Shown piece by piece: positions 37,721-41,000 of a DNA stretch of 47,247 bases; within the stretch, counting starts at the first letter, position 1; each line of letters opens with the position of its first letter. The stretch is from Myxococcus sp. (lineage in GTDB: Bacteria; Myxococcota; Myxococcia; Myxococcales; Myxococcaceae), in contig JACSRE010000204.1 of the NCBI GenBank assembly GCA_014879945.1, positions 1 through 47,247 on the forward strand, given 5' to 3'. The notes beneath the pieces were generated by a model. That model searched no databases. It saw only the letters and a list, made by a program, of their open reading frames with translations, and was not told where the DNA came from. The translations under genes were made by a program, and so were the position numbers.

Positions 37721-39078
37721 ATGGCTGCTGTCGTTCGTTCTCCTCTCGTGCCTCGACACCCAACTGCCGCCGGCGCCGGTCGAGGGCCCGGGCACGGTGC
37801 GCGCCACCCTCGTCACCGCCATCCCCAACCGCCAGGAGCGCGTTCCCGCGAAGGGCGCCACCGTGACGCTGGTGGGCACCACGCTTCGGGCGGTGGCCGA
37901 CGACGATGGCAACGTGCTGCTCAGCGGGCTGACGGTGCGCGCCGGGCGCCTGCTCTTCTCGTTCGATGCCGACGGCGATGGCGTGGCCGAGCAGACGAAG
38001 GTGGTGACGCTCGAGTCCGCGCGCGCGGGCTTCGGGAAGGACGTGAACCTGGGGCTGCTCCTCCTGGACCGCAACGCGACGCTGGTGGGCGTGGTGAAGC
38101 GGGGCGACCGTGCTCAGCTCACCGCAGGGCATGGCGGCATCACGGTGTTCCTGCCGGAGCTGCCCCAGCTCGCGTACACCGGCGACGACGGGAGCTTCAC
38201 GCTGGGCGGGGTGCCCGAGGGCAACGTGGTGCTCTCGGCGTTCGCCCAGGGCTACGATGGCGCCGCGACGACACTCCAGGTCGGCGCCGGCCGTGAGGAG
38301 CGCGTCGGCCAGTTGACCTGGTGCCCAACCCGGGAGGTCCCGCAGTCGGGCAGCTGAGCGGCCGGGTGCTCCAGCCTGATGGGGCGCCGATCGACGCCGT
38401 GTCGGTCCGCGCTGCCGCGCGTGGCGTCGAGCAGAGCGCCCAGACGGACGCCGAGGGCCGCTTCTCGTTCGCTACCCTCGGCGTCGGCGTCTACTCCCTC
38501 GCGCTCGAGAAGGTCGGCCTCACTCCGCTGAAGGTCGACTCGGTGCTCGTGAGCGCCGCGCGCAATGAGGTCGGCCCGTACACGATGACGCCCGGCGGCG
38601 GTGCTTCGGTCGCGCTCGATGGTGGGCCCGCGGGTCCCCCGACGCCGGCAGCGGTGGCGGTGCAGCCGGTGGAAGCGCAGCCGGTGGAAGCGCAGCCGGT
38701 GGAAGTGCAGCCGGTGGGAGTGCAGCCGGTGGGAGTGCAGCCGGTGGGAGCGCAGCCGGTGGAAGCGCAGCAGGTGGAAGCGCAGCAGGTGGAAGCGCAG
38801 CCGGTGGACGCGCAGCCGGTGGACGCGCAGGCGGTGGAAGCGCAGCCGGTGGAAGCGCAGCCGGTGGAAGCGCAGCCGGTGGAAGCGCAGCCGGTGGAAG
38901 CGCAGCCGGTGGTGTGGTGCCCGTCGCCGTCGTTGGCGCGCCTCAAGTGGTGACGCCCGGCGCGCAGGTGGCCCTCAGCGGCTCCTCCAGCACCGGCGAG
39001 CTCCCGCTGCGCTACACGTGGACCCAGCTTCCCGGGAGCCCCGCGGTCACCCCCGGTGGCGCATCGCCGCCCGGGTGA
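37721..39078 (+). pseudogene. Broken lipoprotein gene with carboxypeptidase-regulatory-like domains
   Basis: One protein is spread over three frames. From the ATG at 37721 a single base must be added to enter the lipoprotein frame WLLSFVLLSCLDTQLPPAPVE and the domain frame that runs to ~38318. There, at TTGACCTGG, the frame shifts to QLSGRVLQPDGAPIDAVSV, a second regulatory-like (CNA-B/carboxypeptidase-like) repeat. In the CCCCC run near 38637-38641 it shifts again to a DAGSGGGAAGGSA tail, then a partial PKD-like segment (VALSGSSSTGELPLRYTW) ending at 39078. In the intact form this would be a surface lipoprotein. The lesions are three single-base events, either gene decay or assembly errors; the PKD part also ends early. 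Confidence 0.75.
38652..38912 (+). repeat. GGTGGAAGCGCAGCC tandem array
   Basis: About 17 copies of a 15-base unit. In the frame expected for this protein family it encodes Gly-Gly-Ser-Ala-Ala units, matching the tail of the Cys-rich gene at 2.2 kb. In the frame left by the upstream shift it reads Gln-Pro-Val-Glu-Ala, which is not natural for these proteins. This mismatch is the evidence for the frameshift just upstream. Confidence 0.8.
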
Positions 39079-39102
39079 TTCGCTGAGCCGCCGCCGGGCC
39101 CC

Positions 39103-39753
39103 TCAGCGAGGCAGGGCCCGCACCGCCGCGCCGAGGTCGCTCCTCCACTGCGACACGCTGCGCGCCGACGCCTTCCACGACAGCACCTTCTGGCCGGCGG
39201 CGTCGAAGACGAAGGTGTCGTGCTTCACCGCCCCCGCCTCGAGCTGGCTCCACGCCGTGCGCGCGGGCGACGGGTCGCGGAACAGGGGCATCGTCAGCGC
39301 CGGCGAGGGCGGTGAGGTGAGGAACCAGCTCGCGTTGGAGTCAGACAGCGCCACGAACTGCACCGTACGGCCTTCGCTCTTCAGCTCGCTCCACAACGAC
39401 TCGGCGATCCCAGCCTGGGACCGACAGTTCGTTCAAAACCCCTCTATCAACACCACCACGAGCGGCCGGCCCGCGAAGGCCGAGAGGCCGTAGGTCTCGT
39501 TGGCGCGGGGGCTCAGCGGCTGCAGGTCGGTCAGCGTCCACGTCGGGTACATCGCGGCGAGCGCCATGCCGCCCGCGGCGTTGCCGACCGAGCCTCCGGC
39601 CGCGCCGCCACCCTGGCCCGCCGCTCCGCCCGCCGTCGCGTCGGGAGCGCCACCGCCCGTGCGCTGGCCCAGCCCGGCGTCGACCGCGCCGCCGTCATTC
39701 ACCGCCGCGCCGCACGCCACCAGCACTCCATGAACCAACCGTGTTGACTTCAT
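39103..39753 (-). CDS. Thioredoxin-like lipoprotein with in-frame TGA: candidate selenoprotein (UxxC)
   Basis: Reading the TGA at 39433-39435 as selenocysteine (Sec) gives a 216-residue protein. MKSTRLVHGVLVAC is a strong lipobox (Cys14). A Gly/Ala linker follows, then a thioredoxin-like domain: YPTWTLTDLQPLSP, GRPLVVVLIEGF, Sec107-Thr-Asn-Cys110, RSQAGIAESLWSELK, QFVALSDSNASWF, HDTFVFDAAGQKVLSW. The TGA sits where the first Cys of a CxxC redox motif belongs, and the frame is open and family-like on both sides. A hairpin of bacterial SECIS geometry starts 11 bases after it. The ATG overlaps the stop of the upstream thioredoxin-domain gene (ATGA). The alternative is a Cys-to-stop nonsense mutation. 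Conventional calling would split it into 39433-39753 and 39103-39396. Confidence 0.78.
39395..39435 (-). promoter_or_regulatory. Bacterial SECIS-like element after TGA (lipoprotein gene)
   Basis: After the TGA there are 11 bases, then stem GTCCCA/TGGGAT (one G-T pair), loop GGC (39413-39415). The loop starts 17 bases after the TGA and begins GG. An outer stem AACGA/TCGTT (39429-39433 with 39395-39399) further supports folding. E. coli fdhF has the same 11-base spacer and 17 bases to its G-containing loop. Confidence 0.7.
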
Positions 39754-41000
39754 TGCAGGGCCTCTTTCACGACTGCTTCGACTCGGAAGACCTCATCACC
39801 CACCAACCGCGCCGCCAGCGAGCCGTCGGCGCGAAACACCTGTACCAGCGGCAACCCGGTCGCGCCCGGCACCAGCGCGTCGAGCTCCTCGGGCGACAGC
39901 TTCGACGCGTCGACCCGCTTCACCACCACGCGCGGCTCCTTCGCCTCGAGCGCGTCGAGCACCGGCGACAGCTTCAGGCAGGGTGCGCACCAGGTCGCCC
40001 AGTAGTCCACCACCGTCACGCGGCCCGCCGTCGGAGCGGCGCTCACCTGCGGGGGCGGGCGCAGCACCTCCCACGCGCCCGCCACGCCCGCGAACACGCC
40101 CGATGACGGAACGAACTGCAGGCCCTCGGTGCGCTGCGCCACGGGCAGACGCGCCGCCACGAAGAGGGCCAGGGCGTCGACGACGCGGACCTGCGCCGAC
40201 GGCGTCGCGGTCAGCCACAGCCCGCCGGTGTTCACCGAGGGCAGGCGCGCCGAGGTGAAGGGGTCGATCTCGCTCGACTGCGCGCGCCACTGCGTCTCGA
40301 GCCCGAGCGCGAACGAGAGCCGCTCGACGACGGGGCCGAAGGTGACGCCGGCGGTGGCCCGCACCTCGGGGCCCCAGCGAAAGCCGTCGCGCGCGTCGGC
40401 CACCGCGACGCGGCCGGTGGAGGTGGCGAAGACGCCGAAGCGCGCGGGCAGGGTGAGGCGAAGGTCGACGTCGGCGAGCGCCCAGGTGGTGCCTCGCCCG
40501 AGCGTGAGGTACCGGGCGTTCTCGATGAGGGCGAGCTCTCCGCTGCGCGCGGTGTACGCGCCCGTCGGCAGCGCGGCGCCGGCCATCACCTGCCACCTCA
40601 GGCTGCCTACGCGCCCCAGGTACCGAACGCGCGCCTCGAGGTCGCCCGCGCCCACGTCGAGCTGCTGCCCGTTCACGATGTCGGAGCGCGCGATGGCGCC
40701 GATCGGCAGCTGCGCCTCGAAGCCCAGGCCCTCGCCGCGCCCGAAGCTGGCGAGCACGGTGGCGAGCCCGAGATCGAGCCGCGCCTTGGTGGGGTCGTCG
40801 ACGGTGACGCCGCTGGCCTGCCGGGTGGGAAACGGAATCCACCCGGCGACGAGCTGCGCGCCCACCGCCCAGGCGTCGGCCCGGGCGCTCAAGCTGATGC
40901 CGTCGGCTCCCACCGGGAGCGCAGGGTTGACTCAGGTGGTGCACTGCCCCCACCCCATCGAGGGGAGGAACAGCAGCACGGTAAGGAGTGACCAGCGCAT
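39750..41000 (-). CDS. Secreted outer-membrane-like protein with thioredoxin domain and CxxU: candidate selenoprotein
   Basis: Reading the TGA at 40932-40934 as Sec gives 416 residues. MRWSLLTVLLFLPSMGWG is a signal peptide; the mature protein begins Gln-Cys20-Thr-Thr-Sec23-Val-Asn-Pro, a CxxU redox motif. The middle (~30-310) is beta-rich and barrel-like (RADAWAVGAQLVAGW, ARVRYLGRVGSLRWQVMAG, VRVVDALALFVAARLPV). Residues ~315-416 are a thioredoxin domain with VVDYWATWCAPCLKL (Cys338, Cys341). Without readthrough the remaining frame from 40931 has no signal peptide, which makes termination at TGA implausible for an envelope protein. A hairpin of SECIS geometry follows the TGA. It is coupled by ATGA to the lipoprotein gene. 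A nonsense mutation remains the alternative. Confidence 0.78.
40906..40934 (-). promoter_or_regulatory. Bacterial SECIS-like element after TGA (thioredoxin-domain gene)
   Basis: After the TGA come 11 bases, then a perfect 6-bp stem GCTCCC/GGGAGC (40915-40920 with 40906-40911) and loop GGT (40912-40914). The loop starts 17 bases after the TGA and begins GG. Spacer, stem length and loop type are identical to those of the downstream gene, although the two coding sequences are unrelated here. Confidence 0.75.

Follow-up and report, generated by a model that had tools for sequence, protein, structure and literature searches.

Two adjacent genes in a Myxococcus sp. genome (assembly GCA_014879945.1), here called A and B, form a coupled operon for two predicted selenoproteins of the cell envelope: a candidate outer-membrane channel with a redox motif at its mature N-terminus and a lipoprotein redoxin. 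Both lie in the window, i.e., the whole 47,247-nt stretch of DNA that was analysed (contig JACSRE010000204.1). The analysis draws on sequences and predicted structural models throughout. Comparison with homologous loci shows both internal TGAs, to the extent that sequence allows, to be selenocysteine (Sec) codons with SECIS elements. The support for Sec coding is decisive because TGA is found in eight loci and Cys in three, because the hairpin is confined to Sec sites and because its stem carries compensatory changes.

Selenocysteine coding in a coupled gene pair

Translation with TGA read as Sec bears out what the first-pass annotation had described, namely two genes coupled through ATGA with one TGA each, in a CxxU motif in A and a UxxC motif in B. 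The single internal in-frame TGA lies at 40932-40934 in A (Sec23, context QCTTUVNPALP) and at 39433-39435 in B (Sec107, context EGFUTNCRSQ). Routine annotation is likely to truncate both genes here. The junction of the A stop and the B start reads CAATGAAG, and the layout is as follows:

39750..41000, minus strand: gene A, predicted selenoprotein of 416 aa (translation with TGA as Sec; 10 homologous loci; AlphaFold model)
39103..39753, minus strand: gene B, predicted selenoprotein lipoprotein of 216 aa with a redoxin/TlpA-like fold (translation with TGA as Sec)
39750..39753, minus strand: stop of A and start of B overlapping as ATGA (9 of 11 loci overlap; the other 2 have a gap of 18-27 nt)
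40932..40943, minus strand: redox motif CxxU in A, C20-T-T-U23 (eight loci have TGA, three a Cys codon)
39424..39435, minus strand: redox motif UxxC in B, U107-T-N-C110 (eight loci have TGA, three have Cys)
40906..40920, minus strand: SECIS-like hairpin of A with a 6-bp stem and a GGU loop, beginning 11 nt past the TGA (absent at Cys homologues)
39405..39423, minus strand: SECIS-like hairpin of B with an 8-bp stem and a GGC loop (covariation versus slid controls)

A general reassignment of TGA is ruled out because both genes also terminate at a TGA; neither terminal TGA has a hairpin at SECIS distance. An Rfam scan of the window returned a tRNA-Pro as its sole match. On the plus strand, at 37797-39079, the window also holds a secreted-looking gene that is apparently broken across three frames (37797-38357, 38321-38953 and then a GGSAA-repeat frame ending in TGA near 39079), which suggests frameshifts or assembly errors; a short repeat occupies approximately 38640-38910.

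The hairpins follow literally the scheme of 11 nt, a 6-bp stem and a GGY loop that had been reported for both genes: TGA + 11 nt + GCTCCC-GGT-GGGAGC in A and TGA + 11 nt + GTCCCA-GGC-TGGGAT in B, where the stem can be extended to 8 bp. When a longer stretch was folded freely, the B hairpin was part of the minimum-energy structure, whereas that of A was seen in a shorter stretch only. The chance level in the window is 2.1%, a comparable hairpin lying at the same distance from 19 of its 912 TGA trinucleotides. Among synonymous recodings of the genes' own peptides, 33% (range given 5-39%) folded equally well for A and 4% for B. The A hairpin is thus not improbable given the peptide of A and is by itself weak evidence, and we therefore relied on the contrast between Sec and Cys sites and on covariation.

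In both genes the in-frame UGA aligns with a Cys of homologues. All 16 Sec sites (both genes of eight Sec/Sec loci; -8.7 to -13.1 kcal/mol) have a hairpin, and none of the six Cys sites does (three Cys/Cys loci; best -3.9 kcal/mol). The bSECIS model, as set out in PMC13188914, has a loop of 3-9 nt with a G in its first two positions, located 16-37 nt from the UGA, and an energy of at most -7.5 kcal/mol; the hairpins at all 16 Sec sites of A/B pairs fall within these limits, their loops starting 16-17 nt from the UGA. For B aligned with its TUGYCR relatives, 100% of the stem cells are paired, with compensatory changes and a covariation of 0.494 compared to 0.00-0.20 in slid controls. The corresponding values for the channels related to A (see below) are 93.8% paired and 0.352 compared to 0.01-0.07. 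Several of the stem changes are synonymous on both arms, e.g., Leu CTC/CTT/CTG against Gly GGG/GGA/GGC.

Downstream of the TGA, both genes are under purifying selection, with dN/dS values of approximately 0.26 in A and 0.41 in B (against L010/L024). The source genome encodes SelA (568.7 bits), SelB (316.2 bits) and SelD (383.1 bits), all above cut-off, and a tRNA-Sec with anticodon TCA that likewise exceeds its cut-off (72.9 bits). The assembly is fragmented into 448 contigs, and two sequencing errors or nonsense mutations in pseudogenes might on this account be suspected. This explanation is refuted by comparison with the homologous loci and is vanishingly improbable, since the same TGA codons recur at seven other loci in independent assemblies and since the selection after the TGA, the SECIS covariation and the complete Sec machinery all speak against it.

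Predicted structures of the two products

The features that underlie the structural predictions are:

40062..40871, minus strand: predicted 12-stranded outer-membrane barrel of A, residues 44-313 (AlphaFold model; PDB match 4rl8_C)
39978..39992, minus strand: WCAPC active site in the C-terminal thioredoxin domain of A (PF00085, E 6.5e-8; WCxxC invariant in 12 sequences)
39712..39714, minus strand: lipobox cysteine of B, C14, VLVAC (invariant column in an alignment of 11)

Both products are predicted to be exported, A by a signal peptide and B by its lipobox, and the C-terminus of A contains the further CxxC thioredoxin domain; on these points the first-pass annotation was accurate. It had not mentioned the COG4313-type channel body of A, the position of CxxU at the mature N-terminus or the wider [CU]xxU family. 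The N-terminus of A reads MRWSLLTVLLFLPSMGWGQCTTUVNPALP..., and in most A homologues the signal peptide ends AxA-Q, so that mature A would start with QC-x-x-U. The AlphaFold model of A (m5a5188614c54, 12 sequences; mean pLDDT 81.5) consists of a 12-stranded barrel followed by a thioredoxin domain. Its best match among solved structures is the COG4313 channel 4rl8_C (Z 25.8; 254 residues superposed with an rmsd of 2.4 A), followed by FapF (5o65, Z 24.6), and sequence identity to these COG4313/PF13557 channel structures is 12-14%. We therefore predict for A an outer-membrane channel with the 12-stranded COG4313/FapF fold, preceded by CxxU at the mature N-terminus and followed by a C-terminal thioredoxin domain.

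Searched by sequence against the PDB, A matched through its thioredoxin domain only, and neither A nor B passes any curated full-length family model. PF13557 does not match A of the window; L020 is the sole homologue above the cut-off of 22 (24.4), L014 reaching 13.5. Beyond the thioredoxin domain and this marginal PF13557 match, the barrel of A and of the related channels is not covered by Pfam or NCBIfam (NCBIfam June 2026).

The tail of A (residues 1-29) has pLDDT values below 50 in the model. The structural alignment spans A26-310 and begins with the first residue of 4rl8, 4rl8 residue 1 corresponding to A residue 26, which would place CxxU (20-23) just ahead of the plug, at the tip of the segment. 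In COG4313 channels, the first residues of the mature chain reach from the periplasm into the lumen and leave the barrel almost closed (PMC4493636). Given this fold and the even number of strands, both ends of A are likely to face the periplasm. A resembles Pput2725 (4rl8) and FapF (5o65) in its predicted 12-stranded barrel and may likewise have its N-terminal segment at the periplasmic mouth; unlike A, Pput2725 has no described Sec, CxxU or thioredoxin domain, cysteine receiving no mention in PMC4493636.

B is composed of the lipobox, a Gly/Ala-rich linker and a thioredoxin fold with pLDDT mostly above 90. In the model (mfedb802794fe), helix 108-126 follows strand 98-103 and the redox pair opens the first long helix. 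The closest structural match is the DsbE/ResA-type protein 3gl3_A (Z 17.4), and B also resembles peroxiredoxins (AhpC, Z 16.5-16.7); its AhpC-TSA match (E 2.8e-5) is slightly under the cut-off, and a PDB sequence search with B gave no match. We predict that B is a lipoprotein with a TlpA/DsbE/ResA-type thioredoxin fold and a UxxC active site.

The TUGYCR redoxins are homologues of B (hhalign 98.9%), which is, like them, a lipoprotein redoxin with UxxCR. B differs in its motif, GF-U-xx-CRSQ (GFUTNCR) instead of TUGYCR, in having the channel partner A, and in scoring far below the NF053656 cut-off of 100 (26.9 bits; 18.9-36.6 for B homologues). A true TUGYCR redoxin selenoprotein lipoprotein is encoded elsewhere in the source genome (contig C129, L076:1426-1947; NF053656, 171.5 bits), and similar single-TGA genes occur in seven other genomes (L070-L072, L074, L075, L077, L078).

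Conservation of the pair and the wider channel family

To find homologous pairs, we combined a search of phylum genomes with a scan of GTDB contigs; the latter used two short peptide patterns and will miss distant relatives. The A-B pair was found at 10 further Myxococcota loci, i.e., at 11 including the window, and most of the homologous loci come from metagenome assemblies. Eight of the 11 pairs are Sec/Sec (window, L038, L039, L040 Archangium sp., L041, L045 and L047 Kofleriaceae, L046 'Deltaproteobacteria'), three are Cys/Cys (L042, L043, L044 Labilithrix) and none is mixed. The pair is thus conserved outside the source genome, as the first-pass annotation had proposed to check, and TGA recurs in these other loci, so that the case it named as refuting does not apply. 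Its suggestion that Sec and Cys might swap together agrees with the lack of mixed pairs, but in either tree a single supported branch holds all three Cys pairs (100/99 for A, 100/98 for B), which hence count as one event. The concordance is therefore probably due to one joint change or to inheritance of the whole operon and not to repeated parallel swaps. One genome (G135) has both a Sec/Sec pair (L039, contig C116) and a Cys/Cys pair (L043, contig C108), paralogues on separate contigs.

The distribution is patchy, with the pair in 6 of the 195 phylum genomes searched, source genome counted. It is therefore not a core envelope function. Nor does the pair maintain Sec use, since tRNA-Sec scored above cut-off in 19 of 20 sampled genomes. 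A and B are adjacent on the same strand in all 11 loci, and an all-against-all comparison of the flanks found no other gene common at a consistent place, with the exception of the near-identical species L038 and L039. Comparison thus shows the pair to be an apparently self-contained, conserved two-gene unit in varied genomic places. Apart from close relatives, no conserved neighbours that would name a substrate were found besides A and B themselves, or thioredoxin and channel in paralogous operons. Matches at L017 and L019 were rejected as other, unrelated thioredoxin-domain proteins with the TGA upstream of the domain. In another family of the phylum, Cys-type relatives of A are encoded at L054:980-2512 and L053:1474-2568 (CATCGNPALTAGA, one with thioredoxin); the motif in L054 is CATC. 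No B was found next to either, and a B-like Cys protein (L069) is encoded on another contig.

The tail of A defines a superfamily with the signature [CU]xxU-x-NPxLP, for which we found 24 further loci, many with UxxU. Weak matches had led to channels that open straight after the TGA with UAGUSNPNLPVGG or CAGUSNPNLPVGG. A model of these related channels matches 27 of the 195 genomes, a few of them (e.g., G131 and G135) via the thioredoxin part of A only. The best 25 loci, all from Myxococcota (L079-L103), comprise 13 UxxU, 9 CxxU and 2 CxxC tails and 1 unresolved. The hairpin and its spacing recur in Sec-type members (-6.2 to -11.9 kcal/mol). Either a C-terminal thioredoxin is fused, as in A, or a thioredoxin lipoprotein is encoded directly upstream, with an ATGA overlap of lipoprotein and channel in the source genome (G000) and in G136. 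The related channels also have conserved HHRDET and HQH motifs. Homology between A and these channels extends over tail, barrel and thioredoxin (hhalign 99.8%), which places them in one superfamily. What its members have in common appears to be a channel whose mature N-terminus forms a redox-active tail, together with a thioredoxin, to which the pair in the window adds B as a second predicted selenoprotein.

The source genome itself has a second coupled operon on contig C180 (L061/L109; L061:1168-1785 and 1785-2792), in which a thioredoxin lipoprotein with the metal-site-like Cys/His repeats CDHRVPEGACVKHHP and WCGEHGVPESQCLECHP is followed, through ATGA, by a channel with two putative Sec residues (DAUAGUSNPNLPVGG). 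Since related channels are also found in single-contig genomes (G043), tractable strains may exist, and the [CU]xxU-x-NPxLP channel family is worth its own study.

Possible functions of the pair

A and B may together constitute one envelope thiol/selenol redox module. The CxxU tail of A would sit where the N-terminal segment plugs COG4313 barrels and would give the channel a redox-active element at its periplasmic mouth, alternating between selenenylsulphide and thiol/selenol and trading electrons with A's WCxxC thioredoxin domain and with the UxxC of B. The redox state of the tail might open or close the channel, or the tail might act on a compound on its way out. The A-B operon contains no canonical DsbD/CcdA partner, and electrons would be supplied by a general periplasmic reductant of this type encoded outside the locus. 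We consider such a relay at the channel mouth, made up of the A tail, the A thioredoxin domain and the UxxC of B, moderately probable. It is supported by the fusion of A's channel to a thioredoxin, by the fused thioredoxin or ATGA-coupled thioredoxin lipoprotein of related channels, and by A and B being the only genes common to 11 otherwise unrelated neighbourhoods. The first-pass annotation had read the genes as an electron-transfer pair, possibly for disulphide or peroxide chemistry. Its genuine, conserved and coupled two-selenoprotein envelope operon stands, whereas electron exchange between A and B and either chemistry are merely putative; B lacks PxxxTxxU.

Because the N-terminal segment plugs the barrel in COG4313 channels, the tail might form a redox-active and possibly gating plug. 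A CxxU selenenylsulphide or UxxU diselenide would then act as a switch, set by the fused or coupled thioredoxin and here also by B, and would represent a general Myxococcota device found at approximately 35 loci in two subfamilies. This proposal is tentative and, in our view, rather doubtful; we found no experimental precedent for redox gating of such a channel. If true, Myxococcota put Sec, even Sec-x-x-Sec, at the tip of an outer-membrane channel beside a thioredoxin, and redox control of outer-membrane permeability becomes directly testable.

Other roles for the two proteins have to be weighed against the relay. Dsb-like reduction or isomerisation of disulphides in exported or outer-membrane proteins, with the barrel merely an anchor, would suit the TlpA/DsbE fold of B, its lipoprotein anchor and the thioredoxin domain in A. 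We regard it as unlikely, since it does not account for the constant association of the redox tail with a channel, which holds in two subfamilies and invariably at the mature N-terminus. Detoxification of peroxide or organic hydroperoxides, with B as a selenol peroxidase that A would reduce at the outer membrane by means of the thioredoxin domain and CxxU, draws on the redoxin/peroxiredoxin-like fold of B and on the fact that Sec favours peroxidase chemistry. However, the active site of B reads VVVLIEGFUTNC, i.e., UxxC, and lacks the selenoperoxiredoxin signature PxxxTxxU given in PMC13188914; the top structural match is of the DsbE/ResA type, and a peroxidase does not need a channel. This makes a peroxidase system quite improbable. 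We also give little credence to a role in which thiophilic metals or metalloids (Cu, Hg, As, Se) are bound or reduced as they pass the channel, with CxxU/UxxU as the ligand. The Cys/His repeats of the thioredoxin lipoproteins and the conserved HHRDET and HQH of the related channels would fit such a role, but the repeats occur in neither A nor B and the flanks contain no conserved metal-efflux genes. The relay remains our preferred reading.

Parts of this arrangement belong to kinds already known. A catalogue of 2026, with 119 families or subfamilies of prokaryotic selenoproteins, includes two-selenoprotein operons, redoxin selenoproteins and a CxxU barrel (PMC13188914). A channel selenoprotein like A or its relatives is not described in the catalogue rows consulted, although prior mention elsewhere is possible. 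The CxxU barrel is the TonB-dependent receptor of the FCYXU type (NF049945), which shares with A an outer-membrane barrel with a CxxU Sec motif but is of a larger barrel class, and no pairing with a redoxin is described for it in those rows. In the same source, adjacent selenoprotein genes whose products are thought to cooperate are known from grdA-grdB, prdB-prdC and Prx with SelW-like or AhpD-like proteins; like A-B these are two-selenoprotein operons, but they belong to other families, none with an outer-membrane channel (PMC13188914).

The MtrB/PioB barrels, likened to A by description only, are outer-membrane barrels with a CxxC near the N-terminus. They are much larger, sheathe a cytochrome and are not known to have a fused thioredoxin. 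The GSU2204 family is catalogued as a selenoprotein in PMC13188914, and C42 of S. oneidensis MtrB is required for iron reduction (PMC12175506).
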